Assembly: GCA_903843965.1 (NCBI GenBank)
Contig: CAIMRY010000007.1
Location: forward strand, 1 to 64,000
DNA from: an uncultured delta proteobacterium
Lineage (GTDB): Bacteria; Desulfobacterota; Desulfovibrionia; Desulfovibrionales; Desulfovibrionaceae
Length of the DNA: 64,000 nucleotides
Direction: 5' to 3'
In this document: positions 22,332 to 38,091 of the stretch, piece by piece
Layout of the letters: each line of letters begins with the position of its first letter
How positions within the stretch are numbered: position 1 is the stretch's first letter
Program-made: the position numbers and the translations under genes
The notes under the pieces: model-generated
Databases searched by the model: none
Told to the model about the DNA's origin: nothing
What the model saw: the letters and a program-made list of their open reading frames with translations, nothing else

Positions 22332-24422
22332 CTAGCCCTCGCAGCGGCGCACGCTGACGAAATGCTCCTGCATGCACACGCCGCCGCCGGCCTTGTCCCA
22401 GTTGCCTATGCCGCCGGGCATGAGGTCGTTGTCCGAAACGCCCCGGCCCTTGGCCCGGCTCTCCACCGGCAGGGTGTGGCCAAAGCCGTGGACCATGAAC
22501 ACCGCCTCGGGGTGGATGAACTCCGTGACAAAGGCGCGCAGGCTGCCGCCCTGGCCCCGGCTGGAGGTGACCTCCACCAGGTCCATGTGCTCGATGCCGA
22601 GGGCCTTGGCCTTGGCCTTGTTCAGCCAGAGCACGTTTTCAGGCATGAGGGCGAACAGCAGCGGGTTGTTGACCGTGTGGCCCTGGGTGTGCAGACCGCA
22701 GCGGCCAAAGGTGATGCGGAACTGGTCCTTGGGCGGGCTGGCCGGAGAGACGTAGGGCGGCAGGGACGGCACTCCGGCCTTGTCGAGCTTCTCGGAGAAC
22801 AGCTCGATCTTGCCCGAGGGGGTCTTGAAGGCCAACGGCTTGTACGTCGGCTTGGCCGCCAGCTCCACAAAGCCCTTGGCCGCGAAGTCCTCCACGCTGA
22901 CCCCGGTGCCTTCCAGCTGTTTGGTCCACAGCTCCTCCGGCCTGTCCACAGCAAGGGGCTCCATGCCCAGGCGCTTGGCCAGGCCGGCGAAGATCTCCCA
23001 GTCGGCCCTGGTGTCGAAGCGCGGCTGCATGGCCCGCTGGCGCAGGAAGAACTGGGGCTTCAGGCCCCCCTTGCTGGCCACGAGGCTTTCGCGCTCCAGG
23101 TAGGTGCTCATGGGCAGCACCACGTCGGCAAACCAGGCCGTGTCGGACCAGGTGAAGGTGATGGCCACCATGAGCTCCAGCTTGGCCCAGAGCTTCTTCA
23201 CGGCCTCGGGATCGGGGAAGGCCATGAGCGGGTCGTGGCGGTGGGCGATGTACGCCCGGATGGGGTACGGCTTTTCCGAGGCGATGGCCTCGAAGGCCAG
23301 GTTCACCAGGCCCGGCCCGGCGTCGAAGTGCGTGCGGCCCTCGGCCCAGCCAGCGCCGTCCACGCGCTTGGCCTCCGGCTTGGGGAACAACTCCACCAGC
23401 TGCTTCAGTCCCTTGCGGCCCACGTCCCCGGCCTTGCAGGACAGCGGCAGGCCGCCCTTGGCCCCGATGGCGCCCATGAGCGCATTGATGATGTACGCCG
23501 TGCGGCAGACGTAGAAGCTGTCGCCGTAGCGCGAGACCATCCAACCCGGATGCCAGATGACCGAGGGCGCGGCCTTGGCGAACTGGCGCACAAAGGCGCG
23601 CAGGGCCTCGGCGCTGACCCCGGTCTCCTTTTCTGCGAATTCCGGGGTGTAGGACGCGATGAATTCCTTGAGCTGGTCGAAGTCCTTGACCCACTGCTTG
23701 ACGAACTTGCGGTTGTAGAGCTTCTCCTTCACGATGACGTTGATCACCGCGAGGTTGAAGGCATAGTCCGTGCCCGGGCGGACGAGGAAGAAATTGTCGG
23801 CCTTGGCTCCGGGAATGTTGGCCCGGATGTCGATGACCGTGAGCTTGCATCCGGCGTCGCGCGCGTCGAGCAGGTCGTTGACCTCCTTGACGTTGATGCC
23901 TTCCAGGATGTTGCGGGTCTGGAGCACCACGTGCCGGGCGTTCTTCAGGTCGTAGACCAGCTCCTTGCGGCCGCAGCCGAAGATGGACAGGCAGGCGTGC
24001 TGCACGTTGCGGGCGCAGGCCGTGTCGTGGTTGCAGTAGTTGGGCGAGCCGAAGCCGCGCACAAAGGCCTTGGACAGGTCCATGTACGGGCCGCCCCGGT
24101 CGGAAAACAGCAGCGCCTCCGGGCCGTGTTTGGCCTTGATGGCCTTGAGCTTGTCGGCCACGTAGTCCAGGGCCTCGTCCCAGCTGGCCGCGCGCCACTT
24201 GCCCTCGCCGCGCTCGCCCACACGGATGAGCGGGGTCTGGGGACGCTCGTCGTCGTAGAGCAGGGCCGGTCCGGCAGCGCCGCGCGCGCACAGCGAGCCC
24301 TTGAGCCCGGCTGCGTGGGGGTTGCCGAAAACGCTGGTCACGTTTCCGTCTTCAACGTCGACGGCGACGGGGCACCGGACGCTGCACATGCCGCACACGC
24401 TGAAGACCTGTTTCCTGTCCAT
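22332..24422 (-). CDS. Molybdopterin oxidoreductase, catalytic subunit (PsrA/PhsA-like, cytoplasmic)
   Basis: 696 aa of the DMSO reductase family. The N-terminus binds a [4Fe-4S] cluster (CGMCSVRC, then Cys in SLCARG). A Cys in NHDTACARN, after FGSPN, is the likely Mo/W ligand. Further family blocks include WSDTAWFADVVLP and HGFGHTLP. ATG 24422 is preceded by AAGGGAGG, and this start leaves no Tat or Sec signal, so the enzyme should be cytoplasmic, unlike classic polysulfide or thiosulfate reductases. It is divergent from a four-cluster ferredoxin subunit (24721) that is the natural electron-transfer partner. The substrate cannot be read from sequence; a sulfur oxyanion, polysulfide or aldehyde would each fit. 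Confidence 0.82.
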   Translation of the reverse strand: MDRKQVFSVCGMCSVRCPVAVDVEDGNVTSVFGNPHAAGLKGSLCARGAAGPALLYDDERPQTPLIRVGERGEGKWRAASWDEALDYVADKLKAIKAKHGPEALLFSDRGGPYMDLSKAFVRGFGSPNYCNHDTACARNVQHACLSIFGCGRKELVYDLKNARHVVLQTRNILEGINVKEVNDLLDARDAGCKLTVIDIRANIPGAKADNFFLVRPGTDYAFNLAVINVIVKEKLYNRKFVKQWVKDFDQLKEFIASYTPEFAEKETGVSAEALRAFVRQFAKAAPSVIWHPGWMVSRYGDSFYVCRTAYIINALMGAIGAKGGLPLSCKAGDVGRKGLKQLVELFPKPEAKRVDGAGWAEGRTHFDAGPGLVNLAFEAIASEKPYPIRAYIAHRHDPLMAFPDPEAVKKLWAKLELMVAITFTWSDTAWFADVVLPMSTYLERESLVASKGGLKPQFFLRQRAMQPRFDTRADWEIFAGLAKRLGMEPLAVDRPEELWTKQLEGTGVSVEDFAAKGFVELAAKPTYKPLAFKTPSGKIELFSEKLDKAGVPSLPPYVSPASPPKDQFRITFGRCGLHTQGHTVNNPLLFALMPENVLWLNKAKAKALGIEHMDLVEVTSSRGQGGSLRAFVTEFIHPEAVFMVHGFGHTLPVESRAKGRGVSDNDLMPGGIGNWDKAGGGVCMQEHFVSVRRCEG

Positions 24423-24461
24423 GGGGACCTCCCTTAAGCGAATCGTGATACGCTTCGTACT

Positions 24462-24489
24462 CGTATACCCCCTCTGCCACAAGTCACAA
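24462..24489 (-). promoter_or_regulatory. Candidate promoter of the oxidoreductase gene
   Basis: On the minus strand TTGTGA (24489-24484) and TATACG (24467-24462) are spaced by 16 bases, about 40 bases before the ATG. Confidence 0.35.
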
Positions 24490-24611
24490 AAAAAGGCTAG
24501 TGGTCTGGCCGCAAACTCTGTGTTGGCGGGGAATTCACGAATCTTGCCCATCCCGAAGGCGCAACCCACCAGGGCCCCACCTTGGGAAAAAAAGAACTAT
24601 TCCCCAGTGGG

Positions 24612-24650
24612 TATTGACAATGGGCCTGGCTTTGTGGATTGTCATATAAA
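24612..24650 (+). promoter_or_regulatory. Inverted repeat upstream of ferredoxin-subunit gene
   Basis: TGACAAT and ATTGTCA face each other within TATTGACAAT...ATTGTCATATA, spaced by about 14 bases. The left arm contains TTGACA and the right arm merges into CATATAAA. It looks like a regulator site in the divergent control region, but matches no family I can name. Confidence 0.45.
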
Positions 24651-24720
24651 CATTTGGTACCACTCAGGGGTATGCTGCGGCCGGGCAAACCCGTGCCAGA
24701 TGGAAAGCCAGGAGACGAGC

Positions 24721-25176
24721 ATGAGCCTGTACCGCATTGTGCTGAACCCGAACCGCTGCATCGGCTGCAAGTCCTGCCTGGTGCATTGCAACGTCAAAAA
24801 CAAACTGCCGCCGGGCATCTCCCTGAACCGCATCAAGGCGCTGGGGCCCTTCAGCGGGCCCGACGGAAGCCCGCGCATGGAGTTTGTCTACCAGAACTGC
24901 CTGCAGTGCGACGAGCCCTTCTGCGTCAAGGTGTGCCCCTCTGGCGCGCTGGCCAAGCGCCCCGAAGACGGCCTGATCACCCTGGACATGGAGACCTGCA
25001 TCGGCTGCCACCGCTGCGAAAACGCCTGCCCGTGGGATGTGCCCGTCTTTCTGGAGAGCGTGGGCAAGACGACGAAATGCGACCTCTGCCTGGACCGCCT
25101 GGAACGGGGCCTGGACCCGGCCTGCGTCACCGGCTGCACGTCCAAGGCCCTGACTCTCGTGCGGCCCTCAAAGTAG
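24721..25176 (+). CDS. Four-cluster ferredoxin-type electron-transfer subunit
   Basis: 151 aa. Sixteen cysteines fall in four groups (CIGCKSCLVHC; CLQCDEPFCVKVCP; CIGCHRCENACP; CDLC...CVTGC), the pattern of DmsB/PsrB/PhsB subunits that hold four [4Fe-4S] clusters. It should pass electrons to or from the divergent molybdopterin subunit. The ATG at 24721 is chosen for CAGGAG just upstream. The TauE/SafE gene begins 70 bases later and is likely co-transcribed. Confidence 0.9.
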   Translation: MSLYRIVLNPNRCIGCKSCLVHCNVKNKLPPGISLNRIKALGPFSGPDGSPRMEFVYQNCLQCDEPFCVKVCPSGALAKRPEDGLITLDMETCIGCHRCENACPWDVPVFLESVGKTTKCDLCLDRLERGLDPACVTGCTSKALTLVRPSK

Positions 25177-25246
25177 AACAGCACCCGGCGTGGCCAACGC
25201 CGGGCACACAATATGTAACAAACTTACATCAGGAGGACCACAGCAC

Positions 25247-26521
25247 ATGAACAGACGTTCCCTCTTCGCTTGCGTCATCGCCACGTTGTCGCTCTGCCTG
25301 TGGCTCGGTGTCGCCGCGGCCCAGCAGGCTCCCGCCACCCCGGCGGCCGACGCGGCCAAAGCCACCGCCGCTGTGGTCGGCGACGCGGCCAAAACAGTCG
25401 ACGCAGCTGCGGCTGACGCGGCCAAGGCCGTTGACGGCGCGCCCAAGAGCAAGCTGGCTGCGGCCATCGCCAAGGCTCCGCGCGGCACCGAAAAGGGCAT
25501 GATCGACGAGTCCAAGCCCGTCGGCTTCCTGGGCATTCCCGGCGCGCCCACGGTCAACCCGATTCTGGCCTTCTGCTGGGCCGTGTGGGTGGGCTGGATT
25601 TTCTCCACCGTGGGCGCCTTCGGCGGCGTCATGGCTGGCGTGGGCCACATGAGCGTGTTCGGCTTCGGCTCATACGCAGGCTCACTCAAGAAGACCGCCC
25701 CGGACCTGGGCAAGGTCATCACCGACTCCATCAAGGCCTCCAACCAGTTCCTGGTGGGCACCTCGGCCGCCATCAGCTCCTTCAACTACCTCAAGATGGG
25801 CCGCCTGGTCCTGCCGCTGGCCATCAGCCTGGGCCTGGGCTCGCTCATCGGCGCCTGGGGCGCGCAGGAACTCTCCGCCGGCAAGCTCCATTTTGAGTCC
25901 TACCAGGGCTACTTCGGCCTCTTCGTTCTGGTCCTGGGCTGCTGGCTCTTGTACGAGACCACCCCTGGCGCGCAGAACAAAAAGAAGACCGCCAAGGAGG
26001 CCGCCAGGGCCTTTGAAGAAGTCGTGCGCAAGCAGAAGTGCGGCGAAAGCACGGAAGACTGCCACATCGGCCTGTCCATCCAGAAGTTCACCTTCGCCAC
26101 CTGCGAGTTCAACTTCTACGGCGTGCCCTTCAAGTTCAACCCGCTCCTGCCCTTCCTGGGCGGCATCGTCATCTCCGCCGCAGCGGCCTTCCTGGGCGTT
26201 GGCGGCGGTTTCCTGCTGGTGCCCTTCCTGACCAGCGTGACCCAGCTGCCCATGTACCTGGCTGCGGGCACCAGCGCGCTGGCCGTGCTCGTGGGCATGG
26301 TCACCAGCATCATCACCCTGATGACCAAGGGCACCCCCATCGAGTGGACCCTCATCGGCACCGAGCTGGTGGGCATCACCGTAGGCTCCATCGTCGGCCC
26401 CATGACCTCCAAGTACCTCTCCGACAAGCTGATGAAGCGCATCTTCATCGTGCTTTCGTTCTACATCGGCGTCGGCTATCTGCTGGCCGGCTTCTACGGC
26501 ATCAAGATCCCCGGCGTCTAG
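25247..26521 (+). CDS. TauE/SafE-family permease with long N-terminal extension
   Basis: 424 aa. A cleavable signal (about residues 1-25, ending AAAQQ) is followed by an Ala/Lys/Asp-rich low-complexity stretch to about residue 80, then a polytopic domain in two halves with the glycine motif GVGGGF and repeated SSFNYLKMGR/ITLMTKGTPIEW elements typical of TauE/SafE permeases. A Cys-containing hydrophilic loop (CGESTEDCHIG) separates the halves. Members export sulfite, sulfoacetate or related anions. AGGAGG precedes the ATG. Context with the oxidoreductase pair points to sulfur-compound metabolism. Confidence 0.85.
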   Translation: MNRRSLFACVIATLSLCLWLGVAAAQQAPATPAADAAKATAAVVGDAAKTVDAAAADAAKAVDGAPKSKLAAAIAKAPRGTEKGMIDESKPVGFLGIPGAPTVNPILAFCWAVWVGWIFSTVGAFGGVMAGVGHMSVFGFGSYAGSLKKTAPDLGKVITDSIKASNQFLVGTSAAISSFNYLKMGRLVLPLAISLGLGSLIGAWGAQELSAGKLHFESYQGYFGLFVLVLGCWLLYETTPGAQNKKKTAKEAARAFEEVVRKQKCGESTEDCHIGLSIQKFTFATCEFNFYGVPFKFNPLLPFLGGIVISAAAAFLGVGGGFLLVPFLTSVTQLPMYLAAGTSALAVLVGMVTSIITLMTKGTPIEWTLIGTELVGITVGSIVGPMTSKYLSDKLMKRIFIVLSFYIGVGYLLAGFYGIKIPGV

Positions 26522-28593: not shown

Positions 28594-29640
28594 TCACAAC
28601 TTCATTTTGTACTGGGCCAGCTTGTGCCGCAGGGTGCGCGGGCTGATGCCGAGCAGGTCCGCCGTGCGCTGCTTGCTGCCGCCCGCAGCCTTGAAGGCGC
28701 GCTGGATGGCCCGGTTTTCGGCCTCGCGCACCACGGTGTCCAGGTTCAGGCCCTCCACGCTGTCGTCGCCCTGGGGGCCCACGGTGTCCATGCCGATGCC
28801 CAGGCGCATCTCCAGGGGCAGGTCGTCGGGCTTGACCAGGCCCTCGCCCTTGTGCAGCAGCACGGCGCGCTCGATGAGGTTCTTGAGCTCGCGCACGTTG
28901 CCCGGCCAGGAGTGGCGCAGGAGCAGGGCCATGGTCTCCGGCGCCAGGGACAGGCTGGGCCGGTGGTACTGCCCGCCGAAGAGCCACAGGAAGTACTCGG
29001 CCAGGGGCGCGATGTCCTCCGGCCGCTCGCGCAACGAGGGCAGGGAGATGGGGATGACGTTCAGCCGGTAGAACAGATCGGCGCGGAAGCGCGCGGCGCG
29101 GACCATTTCCGGCAGCAGGCGGTTGGTGGCGGCCACGATGCGCGCGCGGAAGCCCTGGTCCTTTTCCCCGCCCAGTCGCTTGAAGGTGCGCTCCTCCAGC
29201 ACGCGCAGGAAATCCACCTGGTTGGACAGGGGGATGTCGCCCACCTCGTCCAGAAACAGGGTGCCGTCCTGGGCCAGCTCGAAACTGCCCTTCTGCAGCC
29301 GGAGCGCGCCGGTAAAGGCCCCTGGCTCGTGGCCGAAGAACTTGTCGGCAAAGAGCTCGCCGGTGAGCACGCCGCAGTTCACGGGCACAAAGGGCCGCCC
29401 GCTGCGGTTGCTCAGGGTGTGCAAAAGCCGGGCGAAGAGCTCCTTGCCCGTGCCGGACTCGCCTGTGAGCAGCACCGGGGCGTCGGACCCGGCCACCTGG
29501 ATGGCCACGTGGTACAGCGCGCGCATGGCCTCGGAGCGGAAGAGCAGCCCGGCCTCGTGCATGGCCGAGCGCGCCTCGGGATCGCTCTCCACGCCCGGCG
29601 GCAAAAACTTGCCGCCATAGGTTCTGGGGTCCACACCCAT
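28594..29640 (-). CDS. Sigma-54-dependent transcription activator without receiver domain
   Basis: 348 aa. About 35 residues with no known sensor domain precede a complete AAA+ domain: Walker A GESGTGKE, GAFTGA loop, Walker B LFLDEVGD, arginine region RADLFYRLN and sensor II WPGNVREL. A Fis-type helix-turn-helix closes the protein (GGSKQRTADLLGISPRTLRHKL). Such PspF-like activators bind upstream palindromes and open sigma-54 promoters; they are often controlled by a partner protein and not by phosphorylation. ATG 29640 has GAGGAG upstream. It is divergent from a TauE/SafE permease gene, and three matching palindromes lie between them. Confidence 0.9.
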   Translation of the reverse strand: MGVDPRTYGGKFLPPGVESDPEARSAMHEAGLLFRSEAMRALYHVAIQVAGSDAPVLLTGESGTGKELFARLLHTLSNRSGRPFVPVNCGVLTGELFADKFFGHEPGAFTGALRLQKGSFELAQDGTLFLDEVGDIPLSNQVDFLRVLEERTFKRLGGEKDQGFRARIVAATNRLLPEMVRAARFRADLFYRLNVIPISLPSLRERPEDIAPLAEYFLWLFGGQYHRPSLSLAPETMALLLRHSWPGNVRELKNLIERAVLLHKGEGLVKPDDLPLEMRLGIGMDTVGPQGDDSVEGLNLDTVVREAENRAIQRAFKAAGGSKQRTADLLGISPRTLRHKLAQYKMKL

Positions 29641-29735: not shown

Positions 29736-29822
29736 GGGCAATGTTTTGCCCGTCAAGGTCCTTGAGGTGATTTTGTGCCGCCACCGGCAAGTTGTTGCCG
29801 ATTTAGCGGCAAGACCTTGCCG
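29736..29822. promoter_or_regulatory. Three GGCAA-N4-TTGCC palindromes (activator sites)
   Basis: Three 16-bp palindromes: GGGCAATGTTTTGCCC (29736-29751), CGGCAAGTTGTTGCCG (29785-29800) and CGGCAAGACCTTGCCG (29807-29822). The last two are 22 bases apart (two helical turns), the first 49 bases further up. They fit binding sites of the divergent sigma-54 activator, upstream of the permease promoter. Confidence 0.75.
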
Positions 29823-29875: not shown

Positions 29876-29892
29876 CGGCACGGATATTGGAT
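29876..29892 (+). promoter_or_regulatory. Candidate sigma-54 promoter (-24/-12) of the permease operon
   Basis: CGGCACGGATATTGGAT matches TGGCACG-N4-TTGCA closely, with GGCACG and TTG correctly spaced. The -12 dinucleotide reads GG in place of GC, so strength is uncertain. It is 54 bases past the nearest palindrome and 83 bases before the permease ATG. Confidence 0.5.
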
Positions 29893-29974: not shown

Positions 29975-30982
29975 ATGACGATGAATCGGAAACATGTGCT
30001 GGCGGGCTCCGCCTGTATTGTCCTGATGGGTGTGCTGCTGTTCGCGGCCGTTGCCTGGGCCTCCAACGCGGGTACGGACGCCGTAGCCCACGTCGGCTCT
30101 GAAATGGTCAAGGCGGGCGCGGTGCTCGGCGCAGAAACCGGTGTGGCCTGGTGGGTGTGGCCCCTGGTGCTGTTGTTCTTCTGCTTTGTGCTCGGCATCA
30201 TCGCCGTGCTGGCTGGCGTGGGCGGCGGCGTGCTCTACGTGCCCCTGGTCAGCGGCTTTTTCCCCTTCCACCTGGACTTTGTGCGCGGCGCGGGCCTCAT
30301 GGTGGCGCTGGCGGGCGCGCTGGCGGCCGGTCCCGGCCTGCTCAAGCGCAACTTCGCCTCCCTGCGCCTGGCCCTGCCCGTGGCGCTCATCGCCTCCAGC
30401 TGCGCCATCCTGGGCGCGTTTCTGGGCATGGCCCTGCCCACCCGCATCGTGCAGCTTTTCCTCGGCATCACCATCATGGGCATCGCCATCCTGATCCTGT
30501 GCTCCAAGAACTCCGCCCGCCCGGTGGTGACCAAGCAGGACGCCCTGGGCCTGGCTCTCGGCATGAACGGCTCCTACGTCGAGCCCTCCACCGGCGAGCT
30601 GGTGGAATGGAAGACCCACCGCACCCTGCCGGGCCTTTTGATGTTCATCATCATCGGCATCATGGCCGGCATGTTCGGCCTGGGCGCGGGCTGGGCCAAC
30701 GTGCCCGTGCTGAACCTGATGATGGGCGCACCGCTCAAGGTGGCCGTGGGCACCAGCAAGTTCCTCCTGTCCATCACCGACACCTCCGCCGCCTGGGTCT
30801 ACCTGAACAAGGGCTGCGTCATCCCGCTCATGGCCATTCCGAGCATCATCGGGCTCATGCTGGGCTCCTTTGTCGGCGTGCGCCTGTTGGCCAAGGCCAA
30901 GCCCACGTTCATCCGCTACATGGTCATCGGCGTGCTGCTCTTCGCCGGCGGCAAGGCCCTGCTCAAGGGCCTGGGAGTCTAG
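29975..30982 (+). CDS. TauE/SafE-family permease
   Basis: 335 aa polytopic membrane protein. An N-terminal hydrophobic segment ending in VAWASN may be a signal peptide or first helix. The TauE/SafE signatures follow: the glycine loop AGVGGGVLYVPL in the first half and GLGAGWANVPVLNL in the second. Members move organic or inorganic sulfur anions outward. ATG 29975 has AAGGGAG five bases upstream. The gene opens a plus-strand run that continues with a small membrane protein and regulators, under a likely sigma-54 promoter. Confidence 0.87.
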   Translation: MTMNRKHVLAGSACIVLMGVLLFAAVAWASNAGTDAVAHVGSEMVKAGAVLGAETGVAWWVWPLVLLFFCFVLGIIAVLAGVGGGVLYVPLVSGFFPFHLDFVRGAGLMVALAGALAAGPGLLKRNFASLRLALPVALIASSCAILGAFLGMALPTRIVQLFLGITIMGIAILILCSKNSARPVVTKQDALGLALGMNGSYVEPSTGELVEWKTHRTLPGLLMFIIIGIMAGMFGLGAGWANVPVLNLMMGAPLKVAVGTSKFLLSITDTSAAWVYLNKGCVIPLMAIPSIIGLMLGSFVGVRLLAKAKPTFIRYMVIGVLLFAGGKALLKGLGV

Positions 30983-31041: not shown

Positions 31042-31470
31042 ATGAGCGATCAGATCAAGGCCACCGGAAAGGCCTCCCCCGAGCAGATCACGTACGCCAA
31101 CATGCTGTTTTACGGTTCCTGGAGCGGTCTGGCCCTCATGGCCGTGACCTACCTTTTGTACGTCTTCGGCATCATCACCCCGCACATTCCCCTGGAAAAG
31201 GTGCCCCTCTTGTGGTCGCAGCCGGTGCACACCTACCTGGAGCTGGGTCAGGTGCCCACGGGCTGGGGCTGGGCCGTGCTCCTGGGCAAGGGCGACTTCC
31301 TCAATTTCCTGGGCATCGTGCTCCTGGCGGCCATGACCATTGTCTGCTACATTCCGCTCATCCCGGCGTTCCTGAAGCGCAAGGAGTTCACCTTCGCCGT
31401 CCTGGCCCTGGCCGAGATCCTTGTGCTCATGTTCGCCGCTTCCGGCATCGTGGGCGGGGGCGGGCACTAG
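31042..31470 (+). CDS. Small membrane protein next to permease (possibly DUF1634-like)
   Basis: 142 aa with three hydrophobic helices (about residues 22-46, 87-108, 115-137) and a Gly-rich end. AAGGAG precedes the ATG. Size, topology and position beside a TauE/SafE gene fit the DUF1634 family, which often pairs with such permeases; I could not confirm the family. Likely a partner subunit of the permease at 29975. Confidence 0.65.
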   Translation: MSDQIKATGKASPEQITYANMLFYGSWSGLALMAVTYLLYVFGIITPHIPLEKVPLLWSQPVHTYLELGQVPTGWGWAVLLGKGDFLNFLGIVLLAAMTIVCYIPLIPAFLKRKEFTFAVLALAEILVLMFAASGIVGGGGH

Positions 31471-31528: not shown

Positions 31529-32800
31529 GTGGTGGAACAAAGCACACTGGCAAACGTGAGCGGACTGGACAGGGCCGACCTGCCCCGCATCCTGAGCGAG
31601 CTGCCCTTCGGGGTGGCCGTTCTGGACGGGCAGCGCCGCACCCTGTTTCTGAACCGCGCCCTGGAAAGCCTCACCGGGTTTTCCACTGCGGACGTGGCGG
31701 GCGTTTTCTGCCGCCACGTGCTGCGCGGCAGCTTCTGCCTGCACGGCTGTCCCTGCCTGCCGCAGGGCGGGGCCTGCGCCCCCGGCGCCTGCACCGAGTC
31801 CCGCGAGGGCACCCTCATCAACCGCCACCGCCGCAAGATCCCCGTGCGCCTGACCAGCCTGCCCGTCCTGGACCGCGCGGGCGCGTTCCTGTGCACGCTG
31901 GACGTGCTGGAGGACCTCTCGGCCCTCAAGGACATGGAGACGCGTTTGTCCGTCTCGGCCAGCCCGGGGCAGATGGTGGGCCGCTGCGCGGTCATGGAGC
32001 ACCTGCTGCGCATCCTGCCCGCCGTGGCCCAAAGCGACTCCCCGGTGCTGCTCACAGGCGAGTCCGGCACGGGCAAGGACCTGTTGGCCGAGGCCCTGCA
32101 CCGCGCAAGCCCCAGGGCGCGGGAGAGCTTTGTCCGCGTGAACGCCACGCCCATGCCCGAGGCCCTGCTCGACGCCGAACTTTTCGGCCAGGCCGAGGGT
32201 CCGGACGGCGTGCCCAGGCCGGGCAAGTTCCAGCTGGCCCAGAACGGCACGCTCTACCTCTCCGAAATTGCCGACATGCCCCTGGCCCAGCAGGGCCGCC
32301 TGCTGCGCCTGCTGGACGAAAAGGCCGTGCTGCCCGCCGGGGGCGACCGGCCCATGCACCTGAACGTGCGCGTGGTGGCTGCCTCCGGCCGCGACCCCGA
32401 GGACTTGGTCAAAGCCGGGATCTTGCGCGAGGACCTCTTCCACCGCCTGAACGCCGTGCGCCTGCACCTGCCGCCCCTGCGCGAGCGCGGGGAGGACGTG
32501 GGCTTCCTTTTGGCGCACTACCTCAAGATCTTTGCGGCCAAGTTCCGCAAGCAGGTCCTCGGCTTCTCCGACGAGGCCCAGGCCCTGCTCTCGTCCTACG
32601 ACTACCCCGGCAACGTGCGCGAGCTGCGCAACATGGTCGAGTACGCGGTCATGGTCTGCGCCGGAGAGGTGATCCTGCCAGAGCACCTGCCCCTGCCCCT
32701 GCGCTTCCCCCAGGCCCGCGCCGCCAGGGAAGCGGCCCCGGCCCCCGCAGACCAGGGCAGACCCGCCGGGGCGCACAAGCCCGCCCGGAAAAAGGCGTAG
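31529..32800 (+). CDS. PAS plus degenerate sigma-54-activator-like AAA+ protein, no DNA-binding domain
   Basis: 423 aa from GTG 31529 (GTG 31532 also possible; CAGGGAG lies upstream). A PAS domain (about residues 15-130) carries a Cys cluster CLHGCPCLPQGGACAPGAC. The AAA+ domain keeps Walker A (GESGTGKD), the Arg finger region REDLFHRLN and sensor II YPGNVREL. It lacks the GAFTGA loop, where the stretch between ELFG and PGKF is shortened, and its Walker B reads LYLSEIADM with Ser in place of Asp. The C-terminus is Pro/Ala/Lys-rich with no Fis helix-turn-helix. It is unlikely to act on sigma-54 directly. It may sense redox or a metal through the Cys cluster and modulate another activator. Confidence 0.8.
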   Translation: MVEQSTLANVSGLDRADLPRILSELPFGVAVLDGQRRTLFLNRALESLTGFSTADVAGVFCRHVLRGSFCLHGCPCLPQGGACAPGACTESREGTLINRHRRKIPVRLTSLPVLDRAGAFLCTLDVLEDLSALKDMETRLSVSASPGQMVGRCAVMEHLLRILPAVAQSDSPVLLTGESGTGKDLLAEALHRASPRARESFVRVNATPMPEALLDAELFGQAEGPDGVPRPGKFQLAQNGTLYLSEIADMPLAQQGRLLRLLDEKAVLPAGGDRPMHLNVRVVAASGRDPEDLVKAGILREDLFHRLNAVRLHLPPLRERGEDVGFLLAHYLKIFAAKFRKQVLGFSDEAQALLSSYDYPGNVRELRNMVEYAVMVCAGEVILPEHLPLPLRFPQARAAREAAPAPADQGRPAGAHKPARKKA

Positions 32801-32809
32801 GGGGCGGCC

Positions 32810-33157
32810 ATGGGCAAAAAGATCCTGGTCACGCTGTACCGCGACGAGGTGGCCCCGCGCTTCGACCTCTGCTCCGAGGTGCTGCTGGTCACGGTGGACG
32901 CCACGGCCCGGGAGGTGCGCAGGCAGGACCTGGTGCTGGCCCATTCCAGCGCCGACGACCTCTGCGACCTGATCCTGGACCGCGAGGTGGCCGCCGTCAT
33001 CACCGGCGGCATCGAGGAGGAGCACTACCACTACCTGCGCTGGAAACGCGTCGAGGTCATCGACGGCGTGGCCGGCCTGGCCGAAGAAGCCCTGGCCCTG
33101 TACCTGCGCGGGGAGCTCGAACCCGGCGCCATCCTTTTTCCGAGGATTGCCACATGA
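32810..33157 (+). CDS. NifX/NafY-fold protein (dinitrogenase cofactor-binding family)
   Basis: 115 aa. VAPRFDLCSEVLLV near the start, AVITGGI in the middle and VIDGVAGLAEEALALYLRG near the end match the small Nitro_FeMo-Co family. Family members bind metal-sulfur clusters or cofactors; many occur outside nitrogen fixation. Here a Cys follows the RFD motif. It is nine bases after the degenerate activator gene and overlaps the kinase gene by four bases, so it belongs to this signalling operon and may serve as a cluster-sensing adaptor (inference). Confidence 0.8.
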   Translation: MGKKILVTLYRDEVAPRFDLCSEVLLVTVDATAREVRRQDLVLAHSSADDLCDLILDREVAAVITGGIEEEHYHYLRWKRVEVIDGVAGLAEEALALYLRGELEPGAILFPRIAT

Positions 33158-34878
33158 TGAAGCTCACCGAGATCATCAAGAAGCCGTTTCGCGGGCTGCA
33201 AAGCGACGTGGACGAAGCCGAGTCGCCGGTGCGCTACACCGTGCTGCGGCGCAAGATCTTCGCGCTCATGGCCGCAGCCACCCTGATTCCGCTCTTGGCC
33301 ATGGCCGTGCTCAACTACTACGAGCACATGACCACCATGTCGCGCGAGATCCAAAACCCCCTGCGCGTGCTGGTGAACAAGACCAAGAACTCCTTTGAGC
33401 TGTTTTTGACCGAACGCTCGTCCACCGTGAGCCTCATCGCCTCGGCCTACACCTACCCGGAGCTGGCCGACGAGAACAAGCTTTCGCGCATCTTCAGCGT
33501 CATGAAGAAGGAGTTCAAGGGCTTTGTCGACCTGGGGCTCATTGACGAGCACGGCACCCAGGTGAACTACGTGGGCCCCTACGCCCTCAAAGGCAAGAAC
33601 TACGCCGAGCAGCGCTGGTTCCAGGAAGTGCGGATCAAGGGCAAGTACGTCAGCGACGTGTTCATGGGCTTCCGCAAGTTCCCCCACGTCATCGTGGCCG
33701 TGCAGCACATGACCGAGGACGGGCGCACCTGGATCTTGCGCGCCACGCTGGACACCCACCAGTTCGAGCGCATCATCGCCTCCATGAGCCTGGAGCCCGA
33801 CGCCGACGCCTTTCTGGTCAACACCCAGGGGATCATGCAGACCAGCTCCAACAACTACGGCAAGGTGCTGGAGAAGCTGTCCTTCGCCCTGCCGCCCCAG
33901 ACCTACGAACCGGCGGTCTTAAGCATGGTCGACCCGCTGGGGCGCGACGTGTACCTGTCCTACGCCTACTTTCCCGAGGCCGACTTCGTGCTCATGGCCG
34001 TAAAGCCGCGCGGCTCGCTGCTCAAGAGCTGGTACACCGTGCGCGGCGACCTTTTGTTCATCTTCGCCCTGGGCGTGGTGGCCGTGTTCGTGGCCGCCTA
34101 CCGCGTCACCGACGTGCTCATCGGCCGCATGAAGGAGTCCGAGGAGCGCCGCGAAATGGCCCTGCGCCAGGTGGAGCACTCCCAGAAGCTCTCCAGCATC
34201 GGGCGGCTGGCCGCGGGCGTGGCCCACGAGATCAACAACCCCCTGGCCATCATCAACGAGAAGGCCGGGCTCATGAAGGACATCATGGTCCGGGGGGGCG
34301 AGTTCACGGCCAAGGCCAAGCTCGACGTCCAGGTGGAGAGCATCCTGCGCGCCGTGGAGCGCTGCCGGGGCATCACCCACCGCATGCTCGGCTTCGCCCG
34401 GCGCATGGACGTGAGCATCGAGGACCTGGACGTGGGCGAGATCATCAAGGAGACCGCAGGCTTTCTCTCCAATGAGGCCATGCACCGCAAGGTCGACGTG
34501 CGCCTGGAGATCGATCCGGACCTGCCGCGCATCAACTCCGACCGCAGCCAGCTCCAGCAGGTGTTCCTGAACCTGTTCAACAACGCCCTGGCCGCTGTGG
34601 CCGACGGCGGACGCATCGTGGCCATGGCCCGCGAGGTCGGGGACAACGTGGATATCACCGTGCGCGACAACGGCTGCGGCATGTCCGACGAGACCCTGAA
34701 GCACATCTTCGAGCCCTTTTTCACCACCAAGAAGGGCAAGGGCACCGGGCTTGGCCTGTCCATCACCTACGGCATCATCAAGCGCCTCGGCGGCGACATC
34801 GCCGTCGAGAGCGAGCAAGGCGTGGGCACCACGCTCACCATCACCCTGCCCAAGGGGCAGCGGGAGGCAATGGCATGA
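33154..34878 (+). CDS. Cache-domain sensor histidine kinase
   Basis: 574 aa. Two membrane helices (about 33-52 and 298-318) enclose a large periplasmic region typical of Cache sensors. The DHp helix has GVAHEINNP with His near residue 358. HATPase_c shows [24 protein letters not shown] and [10 protein letters not shown]. The start overlaps the NifX-like gene (ATGA), and the stop region overlaps the next regulator gene, so translation is coupled. The likely partner is the receiver protein at 34875. Confidence 0.92.
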
Positions 34879-35288
34879 ACGCGAAAGACTGGAAGATCCT
34901 GCTCGTGGACGATGAGCGCGAGTTCATCACGACCCTGGCCGAGCGCCTGGACCTGCGGGGCATCCCCTCCCGCGTGGCCTTTGACGGCGAGAGCGCGCTG
35001 GAGGCCATCGCCGCCGAGGAGCCCTACGTGGTGGTGCTCGACGTGCTCATGCCCGGCATCAAGGGCCTGGAGGTGCTGGAACGCGTCAAGCGCACCAATC
35101 CGCTGGTGCAGGTGCTGCTTTTGACCGGCCACGGCAGCACCCGCGACGGCATCGAGGGCATGCGCCTGGGCGCGTACGACTACATGATGAAGCCGCTGAA
35201 CATCGACACGCTCATCGAGAAGATGGAGTCGGCCACGGACTACGCCATGAAGGCCGCCGCCCAGTCCGGCAAGAACGAGGGGCAGTAG
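34875..35288 (+). CDS. Single-domain response regulator
   Basis: 137 aa, receiver domain only: LLVDDE acidic pair, phospho-acceptor Asp in VVLDVLMPG, Thr in LLLTGHGS, Lys in MMKPL. No output domain, so it likely relays phosphate or binds a partner protein. The ATG overlaps the kinase stop by four bases. Confidence 0.93.
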
Positions 35289-35294
35289 GAGGCC

Positions 35295-35927
35295 ATGGCC
35301 ATGCGCGACGCGTTGTTCATGGGCCGGATGACGGCCTCGGCCACCCATGAGTTGCAGAACATCCTGGCCACCATCCGCGAGTCCTCCGGGCTCATGGAGG
35401 ACCTCTTGGCCATGAGCAGCGAGGGCTTCGCCCATGCCGAGCGCTTCAAGAAGGGCCTCACCGTGCTGGCCGAGCAGGTGGAGCGCGGCATGATCCTGAC
35501 CGAGCAGCTGAACTACTGCGCGCATGCGCCGGAAGGCTGCTCCGCCGGGGCCGATGTCAACGAGTCCGTGCGCGCCCTGGTGGGCCTGTGGCGCCGGAAC
35601 GCCGCCCGGCGCAAGACCACCCTGGTGCTGGCCCCCGGCCGCACCGGCCTGCGCACCGGCCTGCGCGCCGTGGAGGTCATGGACGCCGTGGCCGCAGCCC
35701 TGGAGGCGGCGATTGAGACGCTGCCCATGGGCACGCAGCTCATGGTCTCGGTTGAGGAGCAGGGCGGGCTCGGCGTGGTGCGCCTGGACTCCCCAGGTTA
35801 TGAGGCGCTGCGTTGCGCCCCGGCCTGGGCCGAGCTGGCCGCCCTGGCCAAGACCCTGGGCATCGGCCTTTCCGGCGGCCCGGGCGGCCAGGGCGTGGTT
35901 CTGGCCCTGCCCAAACCCGTGGCCTAG
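35295..35927 (+). CDS. Stand-alone histidine-kinase-like protein without ATP-binding motifs
   Basis: 210 aa. ASATHELQNILATI near residues 15-28 resembles the H box of a DHp domain, and a long helical pair follows. The C-terminal half has the length and ending (GLSGGPGGQGVVLALP) of a HATPase domain but lacks N, G1 and F boxes. This is the layout of ChpT-like histidine phosphotransferases, which dimerise through a DHp domain and keep a dead ATPase domain. It starts six bases after the receiver gene, so it may take or give phosphate to that receiver. No homology search was possible. Confidence 0.7.
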   Translation: MAMRDALFMGRMTASATHELQNILATIRESSGLMEDLLAMSSEGFAHAERFKKGLTVLAEQVERGMILTEQLNYCAHAPEGCSAGADVNESVRALVGLWRRNAARRKTTLVLAPGRTGLRTGLRAVEVMDAVAAALEAAIETLPMGTQLMVSVEEQGGLGVVRLDSPGYEALRCAPAWAELAALAKTLGIGLSGGPGGQGVVLALPKPVA

Positions 35928-36038
35928 GGTCAAGGGGATTGATTTTTAGGGAGAGATGTGTAGCATTCTGGGCAGCAGCTTGATTCACCATGTTATGCAG
36001 GCGGAGTGCACGCCCCTGCGGACACCAAGGAGGACACT

Positions 36039-36326
36039 ATGCTCGGAATGCTCAAAACGCTTGAGGACACCTTCGCGGCTATGGCCTTTGCCGATGCCGG
36101 GGAGCGGCAGGAAGCCATGCAGATGGCTGGGGTGAAGGAGATGTCGGTGTCCGTTTCGGACGTGTTCGCCGCCGTGGCCTTTGCCGAAGCCGGCTGCGAG
36201 GCCGAGGCCCGCGAGCTCATGGGGATGCGCCCCGTGCGGCTCGTGCCCACGCCCAAGGTCTGCGGATTCCTTGAATCCGTCGGGCTTACGGGAGTGCGCG
36301 TGGCCTACGGACTGGCCGAAGCCTAA
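36039..36326 (+). CDS. 95-aa protein with two AFAxAG helical repeats
   Basis: AAGGAGG precedes ATG 36039. The protein holds two related units 31 residues apart: TFAAMAFADAGERQEAMQ (from residue 11) and VFAAVAFAEAGCEAEARE (from residue 42), then a short tail. A third copy of the same motif ends the response regulator encoded next. I do not know the family. The units look like short helical hairpins, perhaps a protein-protein contact. It lies between signalling genes and is likely part of the same transcript. Confidence 0.65.
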   Translation: MLGMLKTLEDTFAAMAFADAGERQEAMQMAGVKEMSVSVSDVFAAVAFAEAGCEAEARELMGMRPVRLVPTPKVCGFLESVGLTGVRVAYGLAEA

Positions 36327-36341
36327 CTGTAGAGCCAAACA

Positions 36342-36385
36342 CCGGGGGCCGGGCACGTCGCCATGACGCCCGTCCCGGCCCCCGG
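36342..36385. promoter_or_regulatory. 12-bp-stem hairpin between small gene and regulator gene
   Basis: CCGGGGGCCGGG (36342-36353) and CCCGGCCCCCGG (36374-36385) pair perfectly around a 20-base loop. No T run follows, so it is more likely an mRNA stability or processing element than a full terminator. Confidence 0.5.
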
Positions 36386-36419
36386 AACCGCGCGTATGCG
36401 CGGAAACAAGGAGAGCGCC

Positions 36420-36878
36420 GTGAGCAAGAAGATCAAGCTGCTGCTGGTCGACGACGAGGAAAATTTCATCAACACCCTGGCCGAGCGCATGAAGATGCGC
36501 GACATGGGCCCCAACGTGGCCCACGACGGCGAAACCGCCCTGGAGATGGTCAAGGACGAGGTGCCCGACGTCATGGTGCTTGACCTGCGCATGCCCGGCA
36601 TCGACGGCGTCGAGGTCCTGCGCAAGGTCAAGAAGGCCCACCCCAACGTCCAGGTCATCATCCTGACCGGTCACGGGAGCGAGCAGGACCAGGAGCTGTG
36701 CATGCAGCTCGGCGCGTTCGAGTACCACAAGAAGCCCGTGGACATCGACCGCCTGGTCAAGAGCATCAAGGGCGCCTACCGCCAGAAGATGGAAGACATG
36801 ATGGTGGCCGCCACCTTTGCCCAGGCCGGCGACTTTGCAGACGCCGACCAGGTCATCCACGAGAGCGACGAAAAGTAG
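36420..36878 (+). CDS. Response regulator with helical C-terminal tail
   Basis: 152 aa. I chose the GTG at 36420, which follows AAGGAG; an upstream ATG would add a Pro/Arg-rich tail read through the hairpin. Receiver motifs: LLVDDEE, Asp in VLDLRMPG, Thr in ILTGHGS, Lys in HKKPV. The last 26 residues (from about 127) carry ATFAQAGDFADADQ, the same repeat as in the 95-aa protein upstream. No DNA-binding domain. Confidence 0.9.
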   Translation: MSKKIKLLLVDDEENFINTLAERMKMRDMGPNVAHDGETALEMVKDEVPDVMVLDLRMPGIDGVEVLRKVKKAHPNVQVIILTGHGSEQDQELCMQLGAFEYHKKPVDIDRLVKSIKGAYRQKMEDMMVAATFAQAGDFADADQVIHESDEK

Positions 36879-36891
36879 TCCGGGGGCAGCC

Positions 36892-38091
36892 ATGAACGCT
36901 GTCCTGCTCGTCGACGACGAGCGTGACTTCGCTGATCTTCTGGCCGAGCGGCTCCAGGCGCGGGGTTTTGTGGTCCGAACCGCCTATGACGGCGAGGAGG
37001 CCCTGCGCTTGGCCGCCGGGTTTGACATCGACGTGGCCGTGCTGGACGTGAACCTGCCCGGCATGGACGGGCTGGCCCTGCTGCGCAAGCTCAAGCTCGT
37101 GCGGCCCCAGGCCGAGGCCCTCATGCTCACCGGGCAGAACGACCTGGCAACTGCGGTGGCGGGCATGAAGCTCGGCGCCACGGACTATCTGGTCAAGCCT
37201 GTGCCCATCCAGCGGCTGGTGGAGGCCATCACCCGCGCCCAGGACCGCCGCCAGGAACGCCAGGAAGGCCTGCGCATGGCCGAGACGGCCAAAATGGCCG
37301 CCCTGGGCCAAATGGCCGAGGGCGTGGCCCACGAGATCAACAACCCGGTCAACGTCATGGTCTCCCTGGCCGGATGGATGGACGACCTGGTGGCCGACCT
37401 GGCCGATGATCTGGCCAATGATCCGGGAGCCAAACGGGAAACGGGGGCAGACAAGGTCACCGGCACGTTGACCGAGCTTGCGCAGAGCACGGCCAAGCTG
37501 CACGAGCACGGCCTGCGCGTGAAGCAGCTCACGGCCAAACTGCTGTGCCTGTGCCACACGCCCGGCACAAAGGGCGGCGTGCAGCCAAGCGAAGGCATCG
37601 CCGCCGAAGCCGACCTGGGCGAGCTGCTCAAGGGCCTGCTGGCCGCGCTCCAGCCGCGCATGGCCCAGGCGCACGTCGCGTGCCAGCCGGACCTCGCACG
37701 CGACCTGCCCGGCCTGAACGTGCCCCAGGTGGCCCTGCCCGGCGCAAACCTGGCCACCGCCCTGGGCAACATCCTGGACAACGCCCTGGACGCCATGACC
37801 TTTGGCGGCAGGCTCAGCGTCTCCACCCGGGCCGAGGCGGGCGAGCTGGTCATCGAGATCGAGGACACCGGACGCGGCATCAGCCCGGCGCACCTGCCAC
37901 GCATCTTCGAGCCCTTCTTCTCGACCAAGGACGTGGGCCAGGGCTCTGGCCTCGGCCTGTCCGTCAGCTACGGCATCATCAAGGGCCTGGGCGGCGACAT
38001 CCTGGTGGACAGCGTGCTGGGCCAGGGCACCAGGGTCGTGGTGCGCCTGCCCGTGGCCCAGGCCGTGGGCATCGCCCCGCAGCCGCGCTGA
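36892..38091 (+). CDS. Receiver-histidine kinase hybrid
   Basis: 399 aa, cytoplasmic. A receiver domain (about 1-120; VDDE, Asp in VLDVNLPG, Lys in LVKPV) is followed by a DHp helix with GVAHEINNP and a HATPase_c with ILDNALDAM, DTGRGIS, FEPFFSTKD and GQGSGLGLSV. The input is thus another phospho-signal instead of a ligand. It starts 13 bases after the small regulator gene and ends the plus-strand signalling run. Confidence 0.92.
   Translation: MNAVLLVDDERDFADLLAERLQARGFVVRTAYDGEEALRLAAGFDIDVAVLDVNLPGMDGLALLRKLKLVRPQAEALMLTGQNDLATAVAGMKLGATDYLVKPVPIQRLVEAITRAQDRRQERQEGLRMAETAKMAALGQMAEGVAHEINNPVNVMVSLAGWMDDLVADLADDLANDPGAKRETGADKVTGTLTELAQSTAKLHEHGLRVKQLTAKLLCLCHTPGTKGGVQPSEGIAAEADLGELLKGLLAALQPRMAQAHVACQPDLARDLPGLNVPQVALPGANLATALGNILDNALDAMTFGGRLSVSTRAEAGELVIEIEDTGRGISPAHLPRIFEPFFSTKDVGQGSGLGLSVSYGIIKGLGGDILVDSVLGQGTRVVVRLPVAQAVGIAPQPR

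Follow-up and report, generated by a model that had tools for sequence, protein, structure and literature searches.

A PAS-domain AAA+ protein without a sigma-54 contact loop or DNA-binding domain is a candidate regulatory partner of a sensorless sigma-54 activator in Desulfovibrionales

Introduction

The closest described system is that of D. vulgaris Hildenborough, in which DVU2956, a GAFTGA activator with no N-terminal domain, is encoded divergently from an operon containing DVU2960, a protein with GAFPGA and a helix-turn-helix (HTH) (Kazakov et al. 2015, PMC4641369). In EMSA the operon promoter was bound by DVU2956 and not by DVU2960, and in several genomes one sigma-54 promoter is common to the DVU2956 and DVU2960 genes (PMC4641369). 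The same study assigned DVU2960 no regulon and left its function open; its authors proposed that sensorless activators may have a partner protein, with DVU2960 not named in that role. A review reports that D. vulgaris forms less biofilm through the action of DVU2956 (PMC8586430). The TSUP protein DVU2958 falls in a conserved clade for which sulfate transport has been considered (PMC5840216).

In Cereibacter (Rhodobacter) sphaeroides, FleQ controls the production of FleT, a protein with no DNA-binding domain that functions in complex with FleQ. Neither FleT nor FleQ carries an N-terminal regulatory domain (PMC9542535). HrpR/HrpS and VnfA1/VnfA3 are pairs of paralogous AAA+ activators for which mixed assemblies have been proposed or shown; they are described as joint activators, and joint loss of loop 1 and HTH is described for neither pair. 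The sensorless activator PspF is controlled in trans by a separate protein, PspA. PspA is not known to be an AAA+ protein. When PspF rings alternate wild-type and loop-defective T86A subunits there is no activation, since adjacent loops are needed, while a mixed ring tolerates ATPase-defective subunits (PMC4132715).

Here we describe a PAS-domain AAA+ protein (PAS-AAA) encoded in the window, the whole 64,000-nt stretch of DNA that was analysed. As in the DVU2960/DVU2956 pair, a sensorless GAFTGA activator lies divergent from a transport operon that encodes a PAS AAA+ protein whose loop 1 is damaged, and the operon position of PAS-AAA is that of the DVU2960 group. The two differ, when compared by description, in that DVU2960 is reported to have GAFPGA and an HTH whereas PAS-AAA has its loop deleted and no HTH. 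Like FleT, PAS-AAA is an activator-type protein without a DNA-binding domain, but it carries a PAS sensor, and loop 1 is missing as well; moreover, the hetero-oligomer has been demonstrated for FleQ/FleT, whereas for PAS-AAA and the activator it is a proposal. Our model shares mixed assembly with HrpR/HrpS and VnfA1/VnfA3, and trans control of a sensorless activator with PspA/PspF, although the proposed regulator is in this case a paralogue of the activator. A limited literature search found no known activator partner that lacks both the loop and the HTH.

Results

The locus has the gene order activator (minus strand) / TauE, membrane protein, PAS-AAA, NifX-like protein, kinase, receiver and further signalling genes, with the following features:

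28594..29640, minus strand: intact sigma-54 activator with GAFTGA and HTH_8, sensorless, DVU2956-type, the proposed partner (Pfam, alignment, orthologue search)
29599-29614: further predicted copy of the activator site, inside the activator gene (motif search)
29736..29822, no strand assigned: predicted activator sites, palindromes 29736-29751 (imperfect), 29785-29800 and 29807-29822 (motif search)
29877..29890, plus strand: sigma-54-like -24/-12 element GGCACGGATATTGG (alignment)
29975..30982, plus strand: TauE/SafE (TSUP) permease, the operon's first gene (Pfam)
31042..31470, plus strand: small membrane protein between TauE and PAS-AAA, conserved at most loci (locus comparison)
31529..32800, plus strand: PAS-AAA, 423 aa, without GAFTGA loop and without HTH (ORF call, Pfam, orthologue alignment, AlphaFold2)
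32810..33157, plus strand: NifX-like protein (PF02579), found 3' of PAS-AAA and of its intact relatives (Pfam, locus comparison)
33154..34878, plus strand: dCache histidine kinase (Pfam, locus comparison)
34875..38091, plus strand: receiver proteins and kinase-like genes, a conserved downstream signalling block (Pfam, locus comparison)

The activator has the Walker B residues DE and no sensor domain, and 59 residues precede its Walker A; at loci L022, L025-L027 and L043 the activator loop reads GAYTGA rather than GAFTGA. TauE, to which DVU2958 probably corresponds, is present in 104 of the 247 genomes sampled from the order. The permease is strongly conserved across the order (loci L056-L095, mostly at least 74% identity), and its regulators are swapped among loci: activator plus PAS-AAA, kinase/receiver only, or divergent kinase/receiver genes. 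Loci L030-L034, matched by the published description only, fit DVU2960 in motif (GAFPGA), HTH and position. Upstream, at window positions 22332-26521, lies a block with a molybdopterin-type oxidoreductase reading frame (minus strand), a 4Fe-4S ferredoxin-like protein and a second TauE/SafE permease; it recurs at L002 and L009.

The PAS-AAA gene starts with GTG at 31529 and stops at 32800. Pfam recognised PAS (PF00989/PF08448), Sigma54_activat (5e-47) and an AAA lid, and a Pfam search of the protein for HTH_8 gave none. Its parts are:

31577..31912, plus strand: PAS domain, about residues 17-128, with C61, C70 and C74 (Pfam, conservation)
32057..32080, plus strand: Walker A GESGTGKD, residues 177-184, its Lys invariant in 44/44 HTH-less members
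32189..32218, plus strand: loop 1 remnant QAEGPDGVPR, residues 221-230, replacing the GAFTGA loop (alignment, model)
32261..32266, plus strand: Walker B S245-E246, T-E in intact relatives (conservation)
32426..32446, plus strand: Arg fingers R300 and R306, at the PspF R162/R168 positions (conservation)
32618..32620, plus strand: sensor II R364, invariant in 44/44 HTH-less members

Where the consensus has FGHxxGAFTGAxxxxxGxF, PAS-AAA reads FGQAEGPDGVPRPGKF; the Walker B stretch is LYLSEI, and in the alignment the sensor I Asn is replaced by Gly. When the AlphaFold2 model (pLDDT 87.7) is overlaid on the NtrC1 ATPase in its active state (1ny6/3m0e), the TM-score by target length is 0.91-0.92, which indicates an intact AAA+ core. 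Set against what a working bEBP carries, PAS-AAA thus has an AAA+ domain with Walker A, Arg fingers and sensor II, and is without GAFTGA, HTH and the Walker B Asp-Glu. A first-pass annotation made from the sequence had already described this combination, that is, a missing GAFTGA loop and HTH in an AAA+ fold that keeps Walker A, the Arg fingers and sensor II, and Pfam, the alignment with intact activators and the model all agree with it. A short basic tail (KPARKKA) stands in place of the lost HTH (window 32740-32797); in the HTH-less family the mean net charge of the last 14 residues is +3.4, and one subgroup has no such tail.

An unbroken PAS-AAA reading frame is found in 14 genera belonging to two families of Desulfovibrionales, and the closest orthologues of the protein belong to Humidesulfovibrio or Desulfovibrionales. 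The same losses appear in every close orthologue, and comparison with the four closest relatives gives a dN/dS of 0.16-0.23 (near or slightly above that of neighbouring genes). A sequencing error and a pseudogene are thereby rejected, the pseudogene also on account of the invariant ATP motifs. PAS-AAA is under purifying selection.

Two other features had been read as marks of conversion from activator to regulator. The Walker B is indeed S-E rather than D-E, but the 18 of 18 intact relatives carrying GAFTGA and HTH have T-E, which makes the loss of the Asp ancestral and older than the losses of loop and HTH; it is therefore ruled out as a mark of conversion. Likewise, the PAS domain and its cysteines are present, but C61, C70 and C74 are found in 18/18, 17/18 and 18/18 intact relatives and are absent from several degenerate members, so that a Cys-rich PAS domain serving as a new metal site is not specific to the conversion.

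The PAS-AAA proteins of TauE loci form one clade separate from the intact relatives (support 100/99; SH-aLRT 98, two trees). GAFPGA and HTH_8 persist in genus g38, the first to branch off within it, and the remaining 44 sampled members are without HTH. (Automatic HTH labelling missed the domain in a few intact relatives; HTH_8 was confirmed by Pfam in L050 and L051.) Some HTH-less members retain a full-length loop (GAFPWA, GAAPWA or GGLPWV), and because these are scattered over separate branches the loop deletion probably arose more than once. In genus g26 (L054, L055, L079, L094) both Arg-finger residues are gone while Walker A and sensor II are kept, and L067 and L084 have lost the first finger residue; contacts in these proteins must therefore differ. 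Judging from its motifs, the g26 protein could receive fingers from a neighbouring subunit and not donate them.

We then considered how PAS-AAA is distributed relative to the activator. At a cut-off of E <= 1e-95 the activator orthologue was found in 52 of 247 genomes of the order, one per genome (51 from the genome table plus locus L129). In 52/52 of these genomes PAS-AAA lies within 6 kb of the activator and it is never lost alone; as the genomes share ancestry these are not 52 independent events, and inheritance of a stable operon from a common ancestor may account for part of the linkage inside one clade. In g40, g27 and g30 the TauE and kinase/receiver genes are kept and activator, PAS-AAA and NifX are jointly absent (with short contigs in g30), and a search of eight genomes of the g40/g27/g30 type (two of the eight incomplete) gave no activator orthologue at another place. 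Conversely, loci L098, L099, L106 (family f1), L111 and L116 (family f3) encode an intact PAS protein, with GAFTGA and HTH, ahead of NifX, kinase and receiver genes; there the sensorless activator is absent. The proposal that an activator was turned into a regulator of the neighbouring activator is well supported by this co-occurrence and joint absence, by the intact versions that stand without the activator, and by the negative EMSA of DVU2960 (PMC4641369).

Homologues with the same loss and no link to an activator, which would speak against that proposal, were sought. Setting aside contigs too short to tell, full loss of both loop and HTH was seen only next to the activator. A milder change does exist elsewhere: in genus g5 (L100, L101, L122, L124, L126) PAS activators with a NifX-like neighbour and no linked sensorless activator have a loop 1 like KNALPGA, NAFPGA or HSLPGA and keep the HTH. 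By sequence, this is an independent loss of the predicted sigma-54 contact with DNA binding retained, and a change of loop 1 by itself is thus no proof of a partner.

Allowing at most one mismatch within about 500 bp upstream of TauE, the palindrome CGGCAAN4TTGCCG was found at 48/48 loci with the activator and 0/29 without it, and a -24/-12-like element lies downstream of the palindromes at 43/48 and 0/29 loci, respectively. In the lineage of the window the -12 part of this sigma-54-like promoter is TTGG or TTGA, not TTGC; for this reason a strict TGGCACGN4TTGC search missed the promoter and it was found by alignment.

Finally, the evolutionary rate of the AAA domain of PAS-AAA covaries with that of the activator (r 0.44, 0/2000 permutations, corrected for TauE and kinase; 0.30-0.48 across subsets), and no such covariation was seen between the PAS domain and the activator. 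As a receiver control also goes up in one subset, this modest signal is only suggestive. NifX is the protein with which the AAA domain covaries most strongly in rate (r 0.56).

Discussion

By their sequences, PAS-AAA and the activator are complementary halves: a sensor without output and an output without sensor. It is quite likely that PAS-AAA regulates the 28594-29640 activator, and somewhat less so, yet still probable, that it does this by direct AAA-AAA contact. TyrR-like action without sigma-54 is ruled out for PAS-AAA, which has no HTH. We propose that the sensorless activator binds the predicted CGGCAAN4TTGCCG sites and turns on the TauE operon from the sigma-54 promoter, and that the operon in turn makes PAS-AAA, which by its motifs should no longer be able to contact sigma-54 or DNA. 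What PAS-AAA would retain is its ATP site, sensor II and Arg fingers acting on the adjoining subunit, and since these fingers act in trans they are relevant only within an oligomer. It would most likely join or cap the AAA+ ring of the activator, with its PAS domain in control and the NifX-like protein perhaps taking part. Mixed rings are plausible given the FleQ/FleT precedent, the conserved trans Arg fingers and the modest covariation of AAA rates.

Loop-less subunits should reduce activation, since intact L1 loops must lie next to each other in a working ring; the outcome would be a signal-gated negative feedback on the transporter operon. The inactivity of alternating wild-type/T86A PspF rings favours such an inhibitory, signal-gated ring subunit, and if the contact is real the analogy makes inhibition the better supposition as to sign. 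Taken as a whole, we favour with some confidence the reading in which PAS-AAA belongs to the activator's ring as a signal-gated, probably inhibitory regulatory subunit and would provide negative feedback on a putative sulfur-oxyanion transporter operon.

The main rival is that PAS-AAA acts positively, as FleT does with FleQ, supplying ATP binding and signal input to a mixed ring that would be the active or promoter-selective form. FleT, too, has no DNA-binding domain, is under FleQ control and acts in the complex, a component needed for activity would fit the fact that PAS-AAA is never lost alone in the 52 activator-bearing genomes, and the PspF ring tolerates ATPase-defective subunits. Loss of the L1 loop fits less easily with such a role, as alternating loop-defective subunits abolish PspF activity, and we regard co-activation as unlikely, if the most serious of the alternatives. 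Less probable again is that PAS-AAA is a self-contained, ATP-dependent signalling protein acting on the NifX-like protein or the kinase/receiver block and not on the activator. The covariation with NifX is the highest for the AAA domain, and NifX stands 3' of PAS-AAA and its intact relatives almost everywhere, other loci included; yet those intact relatives are activators, which makes the NifX link older than the loss, and g40, g27 and g30 keep kinase and receiver without PAS-AAA whereas the activator never occurs without it. That PAS-AAA is a slowly decaying relict of a former activator, kept only by operon position, we consider highly improbable: the stepwise series from GAFTGA through GAFPGA and GAFPWA/GAAPWA to deletion, the HTH loss and the missing Arg fingers of some members would suit it, but dN/dS is low and near or slightly above that of the neighbours, Walker A and sensor II are invariant in 44/44, and the frame is kept in 14 genera and two families.

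Returning to the inhibitory ring subunit, a more far-reaching version is conceivable, although we hold it only tentatively: evolution may have split a one-component sigma-54 regulator into a sensor and an effector AAA+ protein within one ring, with the number of loop-less subunits setting transcription.

PAS-AAA is a candidate for the missing partner of DVU2956, the sensorless activator for which the effect on D. vulgaris biofilm is reported (PMC8586430). If true, the model would explain why DVU2960 has no regulon and does not bind the promoter. Intact, half-decayed and fully decayed versions across related species would make this a natural mixed-ring system, a series suited to asking what number of functional loops is required in the ring of a sigma-54 activator. 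In many sulfate-reducing bacteria, then, a gene switch appears to be split, with a sensor ATPase probably controlling the sensorless activator ATPase encoded alongside it.
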